DNA of 64,000 nucleotides, from NCBI GenBank assembly GCA_004794785.1, contig SJOL01005510.1:292582-356581 (forward strand), read 5' to 3'. Shown here one piece after another: positions 21,135-57,100 of this stretch. Within the stretch, counting starts at the first letter, position 1. Every line of letters starts with the position of its first letter. This DNA is from Opisthorchis felineus (Eukaryota; Platyhelminthes; Trematoda; Opisthorchiida; Opisthorchiidae). A program made the translations under genes and the position numbers. The notes under the pieces are model-generated. The model made no database searches and was not told where the DNA came from. It saw only the letters and a program-made list of their open reading frames with translations.

Positions 21135-24100
21135 CTAAAGCAAATAAGACGTGAAGATATCAATGATGTTGACTGAGGAAGCTTTGCAATGTTTCCAGCA
21201 TTCCGGCACACAAGACATTCCGAAAAACTTAGAAAATACATCTCATTATTTATAGAAAATCGGAAAGACCCTTGCAAAAGTGAGAAGGAAAGCTTCTGAA
21301 CCACGGCATACCCATGCAGAAACGACGTTTTCGTTTTGTGTAGGTCCAAATAAACTATTTAGACAAACCTCTTTTACATATCTTCAACTGAACCAAAACT
21401 GGTTTACAAACTGTTATGTTTACCTAATTCATATTGCACATTTTTTCTTGCTGAATATTCTCGGTTGTCAGTCATTCGCATTTGGAACGAAAGAACTAAC
21501 GGCAAGAGATTTAAACGCAAGTCTGCTTGCTTTTTTGATCACCAAAAAGTTTACGAACCATGTGCATTTAGAGGTGCATAGCCTAGTGACTACGGAAATC
21601 GCTTTGTGACTTTGTTCGTGACTTTCTTCTGCTTTCGGTCACTGAAACTAATCAGTTTACGTCAGCTTACCTGTTTCCATTCATCACATATCTATGATGT
21701 GTTACACTTTTTATACTGAAGACTAAAAGTGCTGAGTTAACGTTTGAGATCACATGCGGTAAACTCCTGAAGAAAATTTTTATTGATACCGTTCATTACT
21801 TTTATCCCGGTAGGTGCTCGAACAGTCCTCAACGCCTATCCCAGGTGGTCCATACAGTGGGATGCCAACTGCAAATGACTTTGATTCCAGCTCCTAATTT
21901 GTTGTGAGTATCTCAGTTTCACCACCCAGGTGTAACCAACGATGACATTTACGGCAATTTGCCTGTTCAATTCACAAAGCAATACGTCAACCTCTCGAAT
22001 AACTTTTCACCTTTTGCATCCACTCATTAGGTAGTAATTTTTTGTCCAATTTTACTTATACACGATCGAACTACACGATCAAAGTCAAAATCGTTGTAGG
22101 CTGTGCTGTTGATCACTTTGGGGCAAACGGCCAATTATGCACCAGTGTCACAGAATTGGCACCAACCCGACGGTCTGAAGCCCTGGAAACTGGACCGACG
22201 TACAATCACAGTGATTAATTTAACAAAATAAACGTAGGTGGATTCATTTCAGGTGTACTACTGACAATCAAATTTCTAAGCACTTTAAACAAGCAGTTAT
22301 TCTTTCAGCATTGGCAGGGCTTCCGAATTTTGTTTCATTCCGAAGGTTACAATTTTTTTGCGTAAGTAATAAGGAATTGCCCCTCTGCGATACCAGTCGA
22401 TCTGTCGGATTCATGAATTGAGACAGTCATAAAGCCAACTCATGCTCTGGCGGGAGATAGTGGTCCAAAGTGAAGTAAGGTTCTCAACCACACTGTTGGA
22501 ACAAAATGCCACAAGCTTGATTTTCTCACAACACACGTTTGTAGCTTCCGGGCTTTGGTAGTAATGGTTATATCAGTTTGCATATGTAAATCAGGGAAAT
22601 TATTGACAACTGTTTTTTATGGGGATGAAACAGATTAGATCTACGGCCGAGCGGATGTAAATAATGGGGTTTCCAAATAGCTAAAGCCTAGCAGTCAGTG
22701 GTGTTACAGCTCAACCCAGCAAATCGGAAAATTTAATGAAACATCTTAAAAATGTCGCAAGATTGTCAGTTTGAAACCCAGCTGTTAGTTGCAGTAAATA
22801 GATGGTGTAAAAGCGTTCACAACTAGTTGACCTGCGAGCTTGGTTATTATGAGCTTGTGGAAGACATCAAGCGACTTCTCATCAAATTGGTGAACAATGA
22901 CTTTTTAGTCAACACAAACATCAGCTCAGAACAGCATGTCATCCCTCATACAATCTTAAGGTTGACTACGGCACAGGTTGCTTTGGCGCGTGAACCTATT
23001 TTGGACATATTGCCATTATTCTTCTGAAGGACTCACCGGGGACCCAACCATCTGAAGTAGGGGCTTTACAACCCCAGCGTCATGCATTGCCACACAGTTG
23101 TTGGGATCTCTGCTTAACTGAAACAGAGCCTTGGCTGTAGACCTGTGCACGTTTGGATCAGTGGAATTAAGGTAGCCGACCAGAGGGCTGACTGCACCGG
23201 CTCGGCCAAAATCTACGCGATTTGTTCCCCAGGTGCAGCATCGTGCAATAGCCTCGGTGAGAGGGCATCGAAGTTTGTCGTCTTTCTGAAAGTGAAAGAC
23301 ATAGGGGAAAGTTAAAAAACCATACCTTTCACTGTTCATCAGTTCAATTCAATCAATTTATCAGCTATAAACCGTGTACCATAGGCACATTGGTTCCAGC
23401 TGCTACAGTCTCGATCACCGGAAAACGGGTATGTGGAACTTACAACCAGCTTTGGAGGCGACGGCATGTGCAGTTTTTCCATCAGTTACTGGATTGACTC
23501 AGCCTTGCTACAATAACACGCATGATTTTCAAAGATTAAGGTATTCTATTTAAAGCAAATGCTAGCCGGCTTTAGAAAACACAGGCCACTAATTCGATAC
23601 CCCACCAAGTATGTGCAATCACACATGTTTATGTACTAAGTGACTGATCGACATCTCCATCGTCGGCTAAAGCAACATCATAAAAGAGGAACAACTCATC
23701 ACCGCTGTTGTTTACCTTATCCTCCCAGAAAAATACACTGTGAGGAGTAAACCTAAAAGAAATGGGTTGTTGCCGTAATGAGACAGATACGGTAAATATG
23801 TTCAAGAAGAGAAGTTGTATTACGGTTTGACAAAATGTATTTTCCGAGACTGGCTGCTTCTGGTACCTCATCCTATTTCAGTGTTGAAATGCTGTCACGC
23901 CGTCGAAATGGTTCACCCAACGTCAGTCATATTGGGAGCGAGCAGGGGATGATTTCTGGGTGCTAAATGAGACCGACCTTATTCTGTCCTGTAACCAAAT
24001 CAACCATGGCATATTTTAGACAAGGGGTTTATTACCAATCTATCCGGTTTATGTATGAAGTAATTTACACTAGGCTAAATGTCTCATTGGCCTTTGCTAG

Positions 24101-33100: not shown

Positions 33101-36100
33101 GAGTCAGTTTTAACTTGCCTCGTCTTGGTATTGCGTGAACCATCATACCTCGAAAGGATTGAAAGCGTGTCTTTTTGCAATTAAACTCTTAAACTTTTTA
33201 AATCTAAGCCACATTTTTACCCATTTAATGAAATTTATGTGTAGCCTTGATGATTGAAGGTTCCGACTGACAGCGCTTAATGGCTCTCCCAAGTGACAGT
33301 CTATGGGCGAGTGAACTAGTGTATTTTTTTATACTTTGGAATCTAAAGCTTGCTGAAAGCAAATAATTTTGTTTTAATTGTGTAGAATGTAAAACCTTGG
33401 AACAAGTCAATTGCTACAGTACTGGTGAGACAAAACTGAGCTTTTTATTGTCTCATTGAGTCAGGGATCTTAATATGCCCAAAATAATCTATCATGTCTT
33501 ACACCTGTTGCTTGACGCTTTGGCGCACCATGAGCCATTAAATATGGCATACAAACAGCGTCTTCTTTCATAGTATAGATGTAAATTCTACCTGCCTTAT
33601 GCCCCGTTCCTACGTGAAAAACTGACTGAAACTTTGAGGTTTCAATAATCTGTATCATATTATCACCCTACCGACAACTCGTTCCTCAACTTTGAGCAAC
33701 AGCTGGTGTTTTTCAACCACAAAAATGCAGATATAGATGAAACTCACTAAGTTTATTTCGCACTGGTAAGTTCACCACCGTTCGTTCACTGAATACTCCC
33801 GTTTTAATGAGGAAGCGCACTAGTTTGCGAATGATTCATTTCAATGGTGTTCCATCGGGCGATATGATAAGTGATTTAGAGCATCATACAGGGTTGTCTT
33901 CATGTTGCTATAAAAACAAAGATACTATGCACTCGGCCGTGGGACAGTTTGAAAATTCACATGCGTCCAACGTGCTATGGTGGAGTAATGGTAACAGGCT
34001 CGCCTCGCATGTCAGATGTCCGGAGTTCAAACCCAGGCACCGCCATTTGATATGCACTGCTGATGAGCTTTAATAAGAGCGAAACTCTAGTCCAGTGCTT
34101 CCCTTTGGTGTGGACTCACCAGAATAATTACGCCGGAACAATAGAACTACCGTTCAAACGAGAGTGGTGTGAATGTGAACAGCTTGAATAGTAGATCAAG
34201 GCAATATCGAAGCTTTCCCATACACTTTTGCTGGCAAAGTTACGGGTCATGCATTCCAAGGGCGACTGCTTGATTTGTTGCGCACTTGATATACGGCACT
34301 GATGAATTCGACCGTTTCGGTCCGGTGGCCTTTACCAGTCAGACGATTGCTGAGCAACCAATGAGTAAATAGTATTTTTATACGATGCGTAAGACAACAG
34401 TGTACAATAGTTTGGCCCTTGAGCATAAGACAGGACAAATTACGATCGTTTTCAGCTTGTGTATTTTCCGTTTGGCTTTGTCCCACCTACCATTTATTCT
34501 GTGGCACTCATCGCGAAAGGCCACAGCTAGTGAGGGCTTTTTCGAGAAGTCTGTGCATGCGAAAATGTACCAACTTGCCAGTTTAATCTTTTAATAAAAT
34601 GATCCCGAGAGACTGGGATGGGCTTCATTTTTTTATCTAAGGGTTTGGCAACCATCATTTTCAAAAGACGCGCTGAATCGTGAACTGGTTCGTCGCAAAG
34701 GAAATACTGACCCTGAACCAGTTTGTATAAATCTAATTCTAACATTGCGGCAACTTCCAAATCACTGTCATGATTACCAGCGCCCAAACATGGTCACATT
34801 TCGGTTTTCGGTCAACACACGAAGGCAGTTGATGCCGTTCATTGGATTTCTCTTGAACTTGCCTTGCGGCAGAAATCAAACCAATAGTAACTCGGCCACT
34901 TCAAAATCTACGCTGGTGTTTAGGAATGTTTTTCTTCAAAATAATGCAGTCTGATAGACTGACAAGACTGCGCGTAGGAGGATCATTCTTCTCTAGCTCT
35001 CTGTCACCTGCCAAATTCCTTTCTCCTCACAAATAAGTATTGTCTTTGCAGAAAAGGATTCATCTCCCAAAATTTGCAATACAGGTAGAGAAGGTCATTT
35101 TGTGGTGTCGGTCATCCTGCTTGAACAATTTCGTGAGTTCACCATCCTTTCCTGTTCTTTTTCCACTTTGCAGCTGGCTTATACCCCTCAGAAGTTCGGC
35201 GGATGTGAGCAAGGCTGCCAGAAAGATCGTTAATTTATGTTTTTGGTAGGTGAATTGTATGGCTCAACTCGACATCTCCTGGTTGACTGGATAGTGATGA
35301 AATGTGACATTTCCAAGCTGAGCTTGCTAAGTTTTCCTCCAGATTGTTTTTATTCCGTCAGCTGAGGATATCAGGCTTTCCGTTTATGGATTTCTTTTAG
35401 TCTGTTAAAGAGTTTTTGTGACAGCGACGATCAGCGTTTGACTAGGTAGCTTCATACCGTTTCATTCTTTGTTTCACATGTGTTTTGAAACTTTTGTCCT
35501 AGCACTTCTGAGTTATTTTGTGGTCCCCGTGTTTGCCGGTTCTTGGTGAACCTCATCAAGCACCAAATTCTTTTCCTGATTAAAGGTGGATATCAATGGG
35601 TCACCCTCATTAAAGAAATCTGGCCTACGTGCTCGATTTATTCAAAGTGTAGTCATAGCAACCGCCAGGAGTTATGCCTCTGTTTAGGTCTAATGGCTTG
35701 AAGTGTGTTTGGGACTTCATCATCCGCCACACTTTTCTTTAGAGCCCCGCAAAACTTCTTCAGCTTTCTCGCATCCAACTTGAACGGGTTACCTCCTGGT
35801 AAATGTCGCAGTTTTCTAAGTGCCACGTTTAATTAAACATGTACCAAAGAGTTATACGTGTGAATGATCTGCGTTCCTTCCGTAATCTTTACCGCAAAAT
35901 GAAGCAGTCGATTAGGTGTCCGTGTCCACCTGTCGGATGAATACACATTGCAAACTTTTTCGCTTCACATTAAGCTACACATTTGCTACTGAATTTCTGA
36001 ATGCCGCACACATTTTTAAGAGTAATTAACCATTGTCGCTTACTCACCCGTTTCAAAATGGACCCGGGATTTTCGTCCAGATTTTTCAGTTTTTGCGAAC

Positions 36101-48100: not shown

Positions 48101-51100
48101 AATAGAGTGCACTAGAAAACGCCAACCTACTTTGAATATGGTGGATGCACAGTGCATCTGAAGCTCGGGGTTCGGCCTTTTCAGATTCTTCACCAAATCT
48201 TCGACCATCCCTTCTGTTCGGATAGCGACCCGGTACGTAGGCTAAACAATGATACATCGGGAAATTAGCGAAACATTGGTATTCTTCCTGAACAGCTGGC
48301 CTCCTGGGATAGAAAATGACCATCAAGGCTATTTCACCGTCCGGTCTCAGCAAATACAGTTGTCTGACTTCTGCCCATTATGAGTATTTCCATCAAAATA
48401 GATGCGAACATTCAGTATCTCCATCGTGTGCAGACATCGGTGCCCCTTAAGTCTTACTTGTTTCAATGCTAATAAGCACAGACTTAGCGAATATTACAAA
48501 GAGTCTTTCTGGCATGCATCACTGGAAGCTTCTCCTAACTTCTGATGTCCGGCTAAAACACTTCAAACCAGCAACGAGCAAAAAAACTAGCAAAATTTAT
48601 ATGAGCAAAATACAAGACAGAACACAGAATCCTCACTATGACCACAAAAACCTTATAAAAATGAACCTAGTCGGCACCATTGGTCTCCCATCAACTTCGC
48701 TACCCTCACCGCCAAATCTGAATGGCCAGCTTAAAAGGCAGTTTTTATCGTTCTCCATATCGCGAAGTGATTCCGACTAATTCAGTTAACCGCTTCTTTC
48801 TTTCTCACAAAAATCTAATACTTTTGTGAGGTTACTCCAAAGAGCACATTTATTAGATGGCTTATCGTAATTTGTACCAGAATAACGACTGATAAACCCA
48901 ATGGTAGAAATTGTTTCTTGAGTCAGGTGACTCAAAATCAAACATGGTAGTTGGCTGAAAACAAAGCCAAAACACTGCGGACTTTGAGCTAAAAATGTTA
49001 GTCCATGCTGCATCCTCCTGTCAAAACGCATTTTGGTTATCAACGAACATCCCACATCTCCCCTGTAAACCAGGATGGTTAGCGCATCAGCTATAAAACG
49101 TGTACCTAATTCTAACGTTTTTGTAGCAAATGTTGAACAAGCTGCTGGAATTCAATAGTAACTGCGCTTCTCACTTAATCATCAGAAAACGGTTTGACGT
49201 AATCAACCCCTTAAAAACGGAATTTTATCCAAAGGGTGAATACTGCAACATAATACTGGTACAATTTTCCTGATTTAATAGATTATGATTCGGCGAAATA
49301 CACGCATTTGCAAACAAATTTGGTTTCGCGAGAGACGCACCTGGAACCCAGCTGAATCTCTCGTTCGTGATGTTATGATTATGATTCATCTTCTTACCAA
49401 TGAGGATTCAATTTTTACAAACATCACTTCTGTTTAACAGAGGATTCCAAACACTTTTCTACAAATCACAACACCCGGGACATTTATAAATAAGTCATAT
49501 AATCGAAGAACACTACTGTTGTGTACAAAGAGGAACGTTCGTGAGTATGTGCAAATCCTTACTTCCGAGGCGCACTCTTGCAGAGTTCCCACCACAGGGA
49601 TCAGCATGTTCTCGTGAGGGGATTTTAGCAAGCGAGCCAAAAGTGATATTACCCCAGCCTTCTTCATGGCTAGTTTGTTCTTCCGAGATTTGCTGCAAGA
49701 CCACAGAGCTAGGGCTCCACAGCGTGCGACCTCAATATCTCGCTCTACATCGGTGGTCATGGGAACTGCATTTAAGCTTGGACAGTCGAGCAGTGCGACC
49801 TGGAATACACAAAAATAGTTTATTAATTTAGTCAAGAAAATGTATAAAAACTACGTCAATAAACATTTCAGCACCTCAAAACCGACCGTAGACTGCCCGT
49901 GGACTTTGAGGAATTGTCCAACACTGCTTATTTAGAACAAAATAAACTTCATGGAATATTCTCACAACTGAGCGTTGTAGATTATGCGGATGAATGAATA
50001 TACGCCATTAAGATTGAGGGACTGCATGAAGTCTCCAGTTATTTTATCGCATACATGAACTCAAAATGATACTTGACTGCCTCCTAACTAATGGTGACAC
50101 TAGACACAAACGTTATCACGGACAACAGGTGATGCAACAATGTCATACGAATTATGGTCAAAATGCACGAAAGTATGGATATGCAACTTGGTCCAATTAA
50201 GTGTCAACTTGCATGCAAATATTTAGGAGTTCATATGCCTTCCTGTGTGAAAGCGCACTGTGTTTTTTCGAGAAAGCCTGTCTTTTGAGGAAAACAAACC
50301 ATGCAGATTTGAACAATAAGCGGGTTCTCTAAACGCAAGTCTAAGCTCGGGACCCAAATCCGCGCTCGTAAAACCACGGCAGTTGGGTTATTAAATTTTC
50401 GAATGGTCACGGAGTTTTCGGCCAAAAGATAGTCCCTTAGGGAGATATTTTTCAGCAAAACACTAGTCCGTGGTTTGCAATATCCAACCTTGCTTAGATA
50501 TTGTGTGCTGAGATATTGTCCTGACCAAAGTTAGTATGACGGTATAGTTACAATTAACCAGTGCAGTAATTTAATACTGAAACAGAGTTGTACACATCTC
50601 ACTACGGAGCACTGAATGAGGTTATTATCCATCAAGCAGGCGTCTACGCACACATCTCATTATATGGTATAAGAACATATTCATGCTATCACTGCACACA
50701 AACTAGCATTCTTTTGGCTGTGTTTCACTTGTATAATGACTTTTCTTCTCAATATCACACTGTGGTAAGAAGAAATCCATGAGTCTCAAGGACTCAGGCT
50801 ACCAATTTTCAACACCATTAACTCTATTAAATGCAAAAAGCGGTGAATAGGTGCACGCTCTTAAAATAAACAACATGTACCTAAGAACAGAAGGGCCACT
50901 GTTTCAACTAATTTGCTCCTCTGAGAACACTTCCAAACTGACCCTAAATGTCTATGAACAAAATTCACCCTGAACAGCATTAAGGGTTTCCGTTCCCACC
51001 TACGGTCAAATGGGCATTCGTTGTATTATTCTATTTCAGCATCTACCAGAAGTGTAAAACAAAGTACCTTGGATTTACTAATGTGCATAAAACAAGGTGA

Positions 51101-54100
51101 AATGCCACAGCTTTCTCCCAGTATTCCGCAAAAAAGCAGGGTTTTGGAGCATAGGCAATAGAAACACTGAAGTTTTCACTCCGACGGACGTAGTTTCCCG
51201 ATTTAGTTCAAATTCATTCAAACAGCTGCTTATCCTAAATGACACGAAATGTATGTCACTTACTTTCAACATATAAATTAAATATAAATTATGATTACGA
51301 CTTATCTCTAGTTGTTGGATGTGTGTAACTTGCACTCACTTACTCGTTAGAATGGTTTTCTTTCTGTCCTGGTGAAGTTATTCCGGTGAGTTCACACCAG
51401 TGACAGGAAACACCGTACTTGTGTTTTGCTCTTATTACAGCTCATCAGCGACGCATATTCTCAATCATACCGGAATTGCAGCCCCAGACATCTGACAAGC
51501 GAGGTGAGCAAGTTACTACAACCCTACAGCGCACACTGGAAGCATCCGAATAACTGCATCTGAATATGTAAAATCGCCCAATTTGGGACAACGTTGTTGG
51601 TTTGTCCTACAGAGTGAACAACGACTCGGTAGCCGTTCTGGTTGTGTCAACCTACTTGTCACGACCTCCAAGTCAGTTACGGCTACAGACACTTTAAATC
51701 TGCCCAACAATTTTCGGTCAGGTATGCTTGGTTTTGGGTCGCTCTAATAAAGACGAAACTCGAGCCTACTGTGACCTACCTTTGGTACGGAAGCATCAGA
51801 ATAAGTACACCAAGACAGGAGAGCAGTGTGATTGATTGATGTAATAACAAATATAAATCTGGCAAAGTTGTGCTCTTTTACCTTTTGGCCGCTATTATTT
51901 GTTTTAATCACAACCAACAAATCGAATGCACTTGGCCACAAGTACGTGCCTGAAATGGTTGCGTCACATGTTGAACAGCTCATACAGGGCGAGTACGCGA
52001 GTGTAATAACTCACCAGGCGCTTGATTCCACCATACTGTCGGACAGTACGTCTAGCTCTGTGAAAGTTTGCAACGTTTGCTATCACTTCGGCACTAAGGC
52101 ACTTCAGGTCCCTGTTAGGACTGCGCAGTAAATTGACCAACGGTTGGAGTCCTCCCACGTCTGCTATGGCACGTCGAATTTTAGGATTCTTCGTGATTTC
52201 CCTCAGAATCTTCAGTGATCCGAGCTTTACGTAAAAAGTACAATAAAGAAATCGGTTTGTAGAAACTTATTACATCTTTTTGGAAAGTTCCTACCAATAT
52301 CCCGGTCAAATGTGCCATTAAGCTGCATTCTGGAGTTAGTTTTGAATGGAAATATTCATTCTCAAGTGGATAAACTTGTTTGACCAATGGTATTTGACCA
52401 CGTAATTCGGATTTTAACGAGTTCTGTTTTTACCTTTAAGAAAATCTGTTCATCATGTCTCGTTGTGACTGTCGCCCAAAATGTCTTACGTAAAGCTGTG
52501 AAAAATAGTTATACATTCGTTACGTATTACATGCTACCACCTCCCATATGCTAGAACTAGTGAGTTACCTAGTTTATGAAATCACGATGGAATGCGTCTG
52601 TGTGGTGTCATTCGTGGAACCAGACATAGATAGAGTCTGACTTGATAAGAATTATACACGCTGTGGCATAATCTGCCACTAAAAGCCAGTTAAAAATAGG
52701 GGATACATCGGCTCATACCTATGCAAAGCATATAAAGGAAAACTAACCACTGTGACCCCTGTATGTCATTGAAATTACTTCGAATTCGAACAGTAGTGTT
52801 GTGAAAGCACATAATCAGCAGACCGCGTTACTCAGTGGAATGTCCAGCATATTACAAGTCATACCCCCTGCCTATCTACATACGTACGCACGTTTTGATA
52901 CATTACTAAATGGAAACCGTCAATCTTTCCAGGGCCAACTGCGTCAAAGTATGCAAACTCATAATTTCAATATTACACAGATTGTTGAATTTGCAGTTAA
53001 AACGCCTGAGACGTTTTACCTTAACGCTTCATTCTGACGCGTTCCTGTGGGTATAAATTTGGAATAATTAGAAGGTTGAAGGAGAGAGTTACCAAACATT
53101 TCGAAATCATGTTCACAAGACATGGGGACTATTTTTATACTGCTCCAACAAACTACCGGAAATGACAAGTAGCGAATGAAAATAATGAAAACTGCAACCA
53201 TGAGTCTGAGCTCTTCGCCTTGCCGACTTTATCCAAGTAGAAATTCTGCTCACAGGCATGTGAAAACGCTAGGAAATTTGCGTATTACTGTGCCTGAGAT
53301 TACTTTGTTTTCACAGTTTTCTAAACAATGGAAAAATCGTTTCTTAGATGCGACGCTACTAATGAGGTTGAAATTCCTGACACCTTAGTAACGCTTTTGC
53401 CATTTTCGGGCTTATCAACTGAACGCAGTTCCCAAACTTCTATCAGCCTTACTTTGCACTTAAGCGGTTATTGAAGACTTGAAAACTTAACTGGATGTTT
53501 AAACTTAATTTCAAAATAGGAAGAGGTTAACTCAAGATCTAAAAGGGGCTCATTCTTATGTCTTATTTGTGATATTCTCCAACCGATTGTGCTGCCAAAG
53601 AGCACTGAAAGTTTAATTTGGGTCAGTATCTAGGATATAAAGGTTGTTTACCATAGGATAATAATTACGATTTTACCGAACCATTCATTGCAGTTTGACA
53701 TCGGCTAACTCGAAGTTCTATCCTTTGAGGGTCTTAATAGCTGTGTCTGCCCGATATACCCGAAAGGACAGAACCACTATTGGGTTGTCGGTGAGTGTTC
53801 CTCAGGTTCATAAATAGTGTCGGATCAAAAACGCATAGTTCCCTATCTTGCGGAATGGAACGCAACGTCACCCTTGTGCAGTATACCTGGCTGAACAACA
53901 CCACTAACCAGTGCTCCATTTAGATCATATTTGTGTCTTATATTAACACCCTCATAGATTTCAGAGATGCATGCTAACAAGTAACCTTATTTCTGAAAGT
54001 GTTCTTCCGTGGCTTTCCTCAGGCGAAGATAAGACAAAAGGATAATCTCTTAGAATTCTAGTGCTACAACTTGGTCGATATGGTCTATTTTCTTCGGCTT

Positions 54101-57100
54101 TTTAATCACCGAGATGGTCTGCTACCTAGTTTGAGGCAATACTTGTTGATTCTGTGTTGATTCCTAAATAGTTGTCAAATCTGACTCCGTTGACTACCCC
54201 TGGAAATTTGTTTATCACGCAAGTTAATCTTCCTAAATGTTCTTCAAACTTTCGAAATCCGATTAAATATCAGCTACCGTAAGTTTGAGTTGCCTCAGTG
54301 ATTAAAGGAAAAATTTACTGACTGGACGGTCCGTGGTTCGAACCCCACATCTGCATCTCGACTGCTCCTGTCTATGCTTGGGAGAACTGCCAGTTTCACA
54401 GCCCTCGTGTTTCCTTTGGGTGGCATGTTAGCTAGACACCGGAAAAGTGTTACAGCTGGATGATTATTATGACTTTTTATTATTACTGCGTAACCGTCTT
54501 TTTGTTACAGGTTATGTAGTAAATATCCAACTTTTCTACATGAGATCACTGCATCAGAAGTTCTTAGACACGGAGCATAGGTCAGTCCTTAGGACAAGTC
54601 ACGGTTTATTCAGAAGATACAAGTGAATGGAGCAATAAATCGTTACCCTTTCAGGAAAAGTATCGCCCCCTAAAAACCCTATAGTTGCGGAAATTAGCTT
54701 GGGTAATATATTGTGTTAAAAGTAGTCGCTATTCACTAACTTACCTTGCATCGGACTTCTTCGGTTTCTAACAGGTTTATCAGGACATCAAGCCCTCCAA
54801 CGTCTCGGACAGCCAGTTGGCAGACTTCGGTATTTAAAGGCATATCTTGCAGCGCACAGAGTGAGATAATAGTCGAAGTTTGGTTTCCACCCTGAATGAA
54901 AATAAAATTGTCCATTTAACTGACCGATGAAAATCGGTGTTCATTAGAACCACTGTGTTCCGCAAGAAACGCAATCGTCCATCCTGGTTTGCGCATCTTA
55001 GCAATAAAAAACGCGTTTTCGTATTCTGAGTATACATTAGTAAACCACTTTTAAACAGTGATTTAGTCATTGTGATTATAGCCTGAATTGTTGATTAACT
55101 TTGGTTTACCCAACCGCAACTGCGAATGACAAACTGTAACCGCACATCAGCCAGTGATTTCCTGATTTACGTCAATTGAACACAGATTTGTCAATCTAGG
55201 GCAAATGTCCCAACTCGTTCTGCCTCCACTTATTTAGCCAGTTCAAGGTCGATCGGTAAACCTACTACTCGGGTTTGAATCCCACCCCGGCATCTCGATT
55301 GCTCATGTCTAGGCTTGAGCAACCTGATAGTATATAAGGCTTCTTTATTCCTACGGATGCCATGAAACACCCTTTCAACCGAAAGGGTGTTGAAGCTGAA
55401 GGACTATTTATTTTTTACTTCTAAAACGCATGTTAGGTACTCCCAAAGCCGTTCAGCCAAGTAAGCATGCACACTGCCTCTTTTTCAAGTCAAAAGCCCT
55501 TCACCTTCAGTAAAATGTGTTTATGATGATTTTTGGGGTTCATTAAAGCAGATAAAGATGGGATGCACAGTGTCCATATTCGAATTTCACCGAGATAACA
55601 AAAAGCTCTCAGCCGTGGATAATGCCGCTTCACATATTTCGGTTTTCCTCGCTGATCAGGATTTTTCTCTAAATAAGTATATTTTCACTGTTATTTTTCA
55701 AGCTTTTGCATGACCTTTGACATAAGAGATAGCGTTATGAAATATACATGTCAAAAACTGACTATGAAATTTTTTAAAAAATGAAGCAAAAAATAGACAT
55801 TCAGTTACAGCAGCTGAGCTGATTCAAAATACTACTCAGTTAGCCCAGTATTTGTTGAGAACCACTAGCTGAGATGAAAACTAAATTTGTATATCGTTTT
55901 TGGATGATTATTCGTCGTCCTGTGCGATGTTTAAGGTTAGCGTCGCAATTAGACTTTCGAGTGGTCTGTGTGAGTTATGTTCAAAAAACGTTTTTCTGCA
56001 AGGGGAACACTAATCCGTCATGCATATATGCCAGTCTCCTGCCAAATTGGAAATAACAGACCAAAGCTCAGAAGAAAAAAACGGTGGTTTCGATTCCGAA
56101 GAATGCATCTATATTGGTAGCCTGAGAAGATTTGGAGATTTTTAATGAAGTTTTTATTCTGTACGTGAAGTTGATTTATAGTGAATAGCCGAGAAGCACT
56201 GTAAATCTGTCTCATACTGTAAATCATCAGCACTGCGCATGTCAAGGAACGCAGATGATTTTCGAAACCATGATCTCTCGGCTGTTAATCTGAACACTTA
56301 ATCGTTCGACCACTGCCGGCTGGTCACTCCAGGTGCCAGTCAACATGTGTGGTCAAGCGATGTGGATCCCGTGATTAAGGGAGGAGTGGCACTGTAACCT
56401 GTGTGTGAGCTAATCCCACTGCTGACCAGCAGCTCGTGGCTGAACGGTTAAAACCCAAACTACTGGCTGCGTGGTTGCGGGCGTGAGATGCCCTGGATTT
56501 CCGTGAAAGGTGAAATGCTAAGGTTTCCCAGTAAGAATGAAACAGTTGTCCAGTGCTTCTTGGCTCTTCAGCATAAATTGACTTTAATTACAGGACGAAA
56601 TATCCGTCAAAAGTATGCATCTACCCTGTGAGCTTCAGGCAATATTTCTGTACATTTTCGATAAGTTGTTTCGCTACAGTATTCCCACATTCTTCATGGG
56701 AAAACCATAAACAAGAGAAAACTTGTCGCGAGTACCTGTTGTGTAAGCACGAGGAAAAGCGCCGATTCCCCTTGACGAAAAAAGTGCTGAAGCTTGACTG
56801 CCTATCCCTCAGGTGCAAAATTTATGAAAGCATGGTGTCAGTCCTTCTAGAACCACCGACTTCGTTAATGCACACTCATAACGGATCCTTTCGTATTGTC
56901 AGTCTCTTGGCCTTTTCACTAAGCCTCGCTTAATCCATCCACCCGGGTGACAATGAAAACTTGAACAATAACAGCTATGTTGTCACCGTAATTGACTGCG
57001 GTTGAATTAACCCCCATATACCAGCAAGATGATGGCGTGAACAAACGTGCAATTAAGAGCAGTATCTGGAAAGGGAATCACAAATCCGCTCATTATCCCG

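Follow-up and report, generated by a model that had tools for sequence, protein, structure and literature searches.

What moves a non-coding repeat that carries a hammerhead ribozyme through the genome of Opisthorchis felineus? The question is raised by a 64,000-nucleotide stretch of contig SJOL01005510.1 (assembly GCA_004794785.1, positions 292,582 to 356,581 of the forward strand; hereafter the window), in which a type I hammerhead motif (34054–34098, + strand) lies within a truncated copy of a dispersed 435-bp repeat family. The scars left at the insertion sites of this family lead us to propose, with a probability of roughly 0.7, that it is a tRNA-headed non-autonomous element of the Sm-alpha/retrozyme kind, mobilised by the machinery of Penelope-like elements (PLEs); the assignment to PLEs is made on the insertion scars and on the abundance of a PLE family in this genome, and a tail sequence in common with PLEs is no part of the evidence.

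As judged from its sequence, the hammerhead motif is confirmed. The CUGAUGA core, the GAA, an NUH triplet before the cleavage point and three stems are all present, and the structure is open at stem I, as in type I. In the window copy the core CTGATGA occupies 34060–34066 and GAA 34081–34083; reading the pairs from the sequence, stem I joins GCACTG (34054–34059) to CAGTGC (34093–34098) over 6 bp, stem II joins GCTTT (34067–34071) to AGAGC (34076–34080) over 5 bp, including one G.U, around an AATA loop, and stem III joins AC (34084–34085) to GT (34090–34091) around a TCTA loop. Cleavage is expected between C34092 and C34093. These are the core and stems drawn in an earlier sequence-only reading of this DNA, and the covariance search that it recommended supports them: under lax settings (701 bases searched) Hammerhead_HH9 (RF02275) matches 34049–34102 with 35.3 bits (E 3.9e-7), under its gathering score of 52, and a covariance model built from copies of the family, the window copy among them, scores the motif at 87.8 bits. 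A further match to covariance models at 34283–34324 (13.0 bits, E 0.18) was taken as chance. Against the call stand the Rfam scan of the window at curated thresholds, which returned no match, and the minimum-energy folds, which are other than the hammerhead both for the window copy alone (1.3 standard deviations below shuffles) and for the family consensus (2.5 below).

Across the family the core is fully intact in 31 of the 45 aligned copies spanning the hammerhead, the window copy among the 31, and the 39-nt ribozyme consensus has 89 exact occurrences in the genome (reversed control: 0), from which the window copy deviates at two positions. The consensus reads GGAUAU-GCACUG-CUGAUGA-GCUCU-AAUA-AGAGC-GAA-AC-UCGA-GU-C/CAGUGC-UUCC, and its stem III, ACUCGAGU, is a palindrome. 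Alignment with this consensus indicates that the TCTA loop of the window copy, which the sequence-only reading had counted toward a possibly distinct fluke family, is a mutated version of the palindromic UCGA loop. Axolotl hammerheads with a palindromic tetraloop are described as cutting better as dimers (PMC7229834). With its truncation and an identity of about 93% to the family consensus, the window copy is itself of uncertain activity.

The family was delimited in the window's own assembly (630 Mb, 1848 contigs). A copy search with a 251-base query scored 40 of its 4713 first-look candidates. It yielded 46 places, of which 40 match at 87–100% identity across 228 or more query bases; head, ribozyme and tail stand together at the places returned, as had been anticipated. 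The 435-nt unit consensus, built from the mapped copies at every locus of the genome-search list, consists of an upstream arm (unit positions q1–202), a tRNA-like head (q203–269), the hammerhead core from q284, with the cleavage point after q316, and a tail with two alternative 3' ends, A near q408 and B near q433. The proposed order of tRNA-like head, ribozyme and conserved tail is thus borne out, but the element does not begin with the head: about 200 bp of the unit lie upstream of it. Self-pairing of the unit RNA is strong (z -5.4 against 100 shuffles), and in its predicted fold the tail pairs with the upstream arm, leaving q397–429, the AC-rich stretch around the 3' ends, unpaired. A frame across the element matches three predicted proteins of Opisthorchis viverrini and one of Clonorchis sinensis; one of these entries, T265_08750, contains a stretch translated from the complement of the hammerhead, so the ribozyme region is present there.

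The head (33979–34045, + strand) contains an A-box-like GGTGGAGTAATGG from 33979 and a B-box-like GAGTTCAAACCC from 34023, by the usual box consensus. ARAGORN identified a tRNA-Ala(cgc) at unit 200–269 under a relaxed threshold only, with none in the unit at its default threshold, and it identified no tRNA in the window. The head may serve as a promoter for RNA polymerase III (Pol III). The lack of a TTTT terminator was considered as a further sign of Pol III design and rejected: 995 of 2000 shuffled units lack TTTT too. Full copies reach about 200 bp upstream of the head, which is not the arrangement of a tRNA-derived short interspersed nuclear element (SINE), where the head lies at the 5' end, and 42 of 51 arms begin at least 27 nt before it. 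Eighteen of the 51 arms have their 5' ends at unit positions 100–139, upstream of the head by roughly 65 to 105 nt (L004, L010, L014, L017, L018, L029, L030 and L032 are among them); this cluster could mark a reverse-transcription stop or a transcription start.

The evidence on mobilisation comes from 47 distinct insertions. A first sample of 38 comprises the best matches to the window copy and favours young copies reaching unit position 174; a second consists of 9 further insertions picked by a unit-junction pattern. The window copy itself (L001) was left out, as were repeated records of one place (L008, L040 and L041, the same as L012, L002 and L004; in the second sample L052, L058 and L059, the same as L035, L028 and L012), arms below 85% identity, which enter neither the arm nor the insertion counts, and insertions shorter than 150 nt in all. 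At L024 a run of Ns just upstream makes the 5' end unreliable. In 14 of the 47 insertions (12/38 and 2/9) two arms of the element form a head-to-head inverted pair, and in all 14 the 5' ends face each other. Exactly matching repeats of 9 nt or more flank 12 of the 38 first-sample insertions, as against 6 of 1406 mismatched flanks (Fisher p 3e-16); overall such repeats, 9–14 nt long, occur in 13 of 47 (12/38 and 1/9). In 7 of the 12 first-sample pairs the flanking repeat encloses both arms, so such pairs are single events. The outer ends of the pairs are mostly the element's own 3' ends, which fall into two clusters some 25 nt apart, A at about q401–415 and B between q424 and a point 9 nt beyond the end of the unit. 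Where both outer ends lie in these clusters, 10 of 11 pairs have one A and one B, the AC-rich tail thus being one-sided, an outcome with a probability of 0.006 if the ends were independent and even; this count scores L023 as B despite a tail that stops 8 nt short of that end. In the four pairs whose arms overlap by more than 200 nt, the arms are more like each other than they are like other copies on average (identities of 0.988 against 0.919, 0.980 against 0.909, 0.962 against 0.913 and 0.943 against 0.916).

Could the family still be an ordinary tRNA-derived SINE copied by a long interspersed nuclear element (LINE), with its inverted pairs produced by L1-type twin priming or by nested independent insertions? 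The tRNA-like head, the 5' truncation and the target-site duplications would all be in keeping with this, and LINE-type frames occur at the same loci. We nevertheless regard it as improbable, since 11 pairs have 3' ends at both outer ends, whereas the inverted part left by twin priming lacks the 3' end of the element; since the repeats that enclose whole pairs argue for single events; and since copies extend past the head, on its upstream side, by up to about 200 bp and more. Inverted pairs between flanking repeats also recall a DNA transposon with terminal inverted repeats, of the type of miniature inverted-repeat transposable elements, and the two ends of the unit are indeed about 71% complementary across some 60 nt. 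That reading is very improbable: arm lengths and inner junctions differ from locus to locus, 33 of the 47 insertions consist of one arm, with 5' ends at scattered positions, and the flanking repeats have no fixed length.

The same insertions hold information on the template. Partial tandems occur in the family, and 17 arms that end at A or B run from one unit into the next. Ten of these 17 begin at q391–418, nearly a full lap away from the 3' end of the same arm, which would fit a circular template on which synthesis halts on meeting its own start; this peak is only suggestive because part of the sample was chosen by its junction pattern. With two more arms that lack an A or B end there are 19 unit-crossing arms, and 17 of them begin on the downstream side of the upstream cleavage site. 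The other two, L060 and the left arm of L057, pass it; L060 has a deletion of the upstream core, and the L057 arm is without the core. None of the 19 contains two intact hammerheads. A piling up of 5' ends at the cleavage site was looked for and rejected: among the crossing arms with an end at A or B, one passes the site and the others fall short of it by 7 to 102 nt.

Perhaps, then, the element is a retrozyme moved as circular RNA by some other reverse transcriptase (RT), and Penelope-like scars are the general outcome of copying a structured circular RNA? The type I hammerhead, a unit within the printed range of 150–450 bp, the self-paired RNA and the copies of about one lap would agree with such an origin. 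We think it unlikely, and somewhat less likely than the LINE alternative. Published work describes the one-sided tail and the head-to-head pairs in PLEs themselves, and PLE RNA is not known to be circular (PMC11167929, PMC3846280); the one-lap peak, moreover, is drawn partly from the junction-pattern sample.

PLEs are present in this genome. Six GIY-YIG loci were found, three of them in frames read by eye as PLE; among the by-eye PLE frames Pfam supports GIY-YIG in two and RT in one, the latter below the cut-off. Loci of the PLE family with RT and GIY-YIG frames are L044, L045 and L047, and L048–L050. Four PLE 3' ends lose their mutual likeness at one AC-rich point, and the 27-nt PLE end has 1200 genomic matches with at most one mismatch (control: 0); among the matches listed (about 100 places) there are 5 pairs less than 3 kb apart, all divergent. 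By eye the PLE family appears to carry a hammerhead of its own about 50 nt before the common 3' end, of more minimal look; an Rfam hammerhead search in the PLE loci gave none. A tail common to the unit and the PLEs was sought and not found at the PLE loci compared. The non-coding unit is without room for an RT or GIY-YIG frame; the family behaves as PLE inserts do, yet does not count among autonomous PLEs. As a separate observation, LINE-type RT/endonuclease-like frames were recognised by eye at L013:2–625 and L018:2564–4108.

Several observations weigh against mobilisation by PLEs. Similarity between the unit and the six GIY-YIG loci, including any shared tail, does not go beyond chance, so the link would be one of mechanism and not of homology. 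Some copies have in their vicinity frames recognised by eye as LINE-type RT and endonuclease, which could point to a LINE partner. No flanking repeat of 9 nt or longer is seen in 34 of the 47 insertions, nor in 7 of the 7 single insertions in the second sample. L002 has end A on both sides, L023 has the shortened tail, and an outer end lies elsewhere in L015 (one end short), L035 and L057. The arms of L013 are less alike than average, and the remaining pairs, with short overlap, show no clear difference in arm likeness. The insertion sample is biased toward young copies, and covariation inside the family is not above that of shuffles.

How the element compares with known systems can be stated from published descriptions. 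Sm-alpha and Sj-alpha are described as tRNA-like SINEs with a type I hammerhead, in thousands of copies (PMC2770079, PMC8490949), and the present family, compared with them by description only, shares the tRNA-like head followed by a type I hammerhead and the many copies. It differs in that the head resembles tRNA-Ala, where that of Sm-alpha in S. mansoni is given as tRNA-Gln (PMC2770079), and the unit here is 435 nt long. The initial comparison with Sm-alpha SINEs holds for the printed layout, but with its partial tandems, head-to-head inverted insertions and optional 3' tail the element is not a simple SINE; no statement on head-to-head pairs or a one-sided tail in Sm-alpha was found in these publications. 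Metazoan non-LTR (long terminal repeat) retrozymes are reported as repeats of 150–450 bp with type I hammerheads, duplications of more than 4 bp and self-paired RNA, those of amphibians having a weak or palindromic stem III (PMC7229834). The unit resembles them in size, hammerhead type, duplications of that kind, self-pairing and palindromic stem III; unlike them it has a tRNA-like head, retrozymes seeming to lack promoters in the account available (PMC7761336), and the tandems observed are partial, with two intact hammerheads in none of the 19 unit-crossing arms. In rotifer Penelope elements, inverted pseudo-LTRs (pLTR) stand head-to-head, with duplications of 8–10 bp, partial tandems and, optionally, a tail of 31 bp at one of the two inverted ends (PMC3846280), and for a lizard Penelope both target strands are reported to be cut and extended, with reverse transcription starting inside an AC-rich loop (PMC11167929). 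The likeness to PLEs therefore comprises head-to-head copies within one duplication, partial tandems, duplications of about 10 bp, an optional tail at one end, and an AC-rich 3' end with a hammerhead near; the unit differs from PLEs in having no RT or endonuclease, and its tail is not common to the PLE family compared.

A mechanism can be proposed on this basis. Transcripts containing the unit would be made, and their hammerheads, probably acting as dimers via ACUCGAGU, would cut multimers to unit length, and the unit may then be closed into a circle, as in retrozymes. A PLE protein would take up the RNA and start reverse transcription internally at one of two places about 25 nt apart; the two clusters of 3' ends are observed, and the enzyme is inferred. 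Insertion would leave target-site duplications of about 9–14 bp and, in many cases, a head-to-head pair of arms whose 3' ends point outward, only one of them tailed; these are the scars seen. A more specific form of this proposal, for which we suggest the term 'Penelope-SINE', is offered tentatively and at somewhat less than even odds: a tRNA-headed retrozyme whose 435-nt RNA, circular or in tandem, is copied by a PLE RT primed on both target strands, which starts at an internal AC-rich site and continues for about one lap, with hammerhead cutting limiting the extent of the copy. Such a limit is suggested because 17 of the 19 crossing arms do not reach the upstream cleavage site, while the two that pass are without an intact upstream core.

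The window copy itself (33950–34181, + strand) is a 232-bp, 5'-truncated copy covering unit positions 174–405 (92% in the BLAST comparison with the unit consensus). Mapping of the 3' ends assigns 34099–34181 (+ strand) to the tail, which runs to end A (..GTGTGAATGTGAACA) and is without the further 25-nt AC-rich tail of end B; the flank test revealed no flanking repeat of at least 9 nt. Its hammerhead is intronic and antisense to a gene matching ODAD2, as the sequence-only reading had it: the exon at 49434–49850 (- strand) matches ODAD2 (best PDB chain, E 1.3e-38), armadillo repeats are found in a likely exon at 23016–23348 (- strand), and we infer that the two belong to one ODAD2 gene. Comparison with the unit identified an older family copy at 51343–51698 (- strand, 70%) and, head-to-head with it, a second partial arm at 51741–51821 (+ strand, 78%). 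The hammerhead of the older copy (51401–51464) scores 60 bits with the family covariance model and keeps all six stem I pairs, one of them altered on both sides, with a mismatch in stem II; this is a single row of the alignment. A second, diverged element of like style was noticed at 56133–56619, whose inverted arms at 56133–56218 (- strand) and 56534–56619 (+ strand) are 71% complementary and enclose a stretch that looks tRNA-like by eye. It gives degenerate hammerhead-like matches scoring 15.0 and 14.1 bits and is bordered by a direct repeat (56099–56126 and 56611–56638).

PLEs as movers of retrozymes are already a candidate idea in print (PMC7761336, PMC7229834), and retrozyme repeats are described as showing no conserved motif that would reveal which autonomous element they use (PMC7761336). 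Penelope-type scars left by an element with a hammerhead provide evidence on the mobilising machinery that differs in kind and is more direct. This evidence seems new within the published titles searched, among which subscription literature is thinly covered, and it bears on how ribozyme-carrying elements spread. The one-sided tail together with head-to-head arms in one duplication provides a simple genomic test for Sm-alpha and for any genome with retrozymes. If the 'Penelope-SINE' is true, the stories of Sm-alpha, the retrozymes and Penelope would be joined in one mobilisation cycle.
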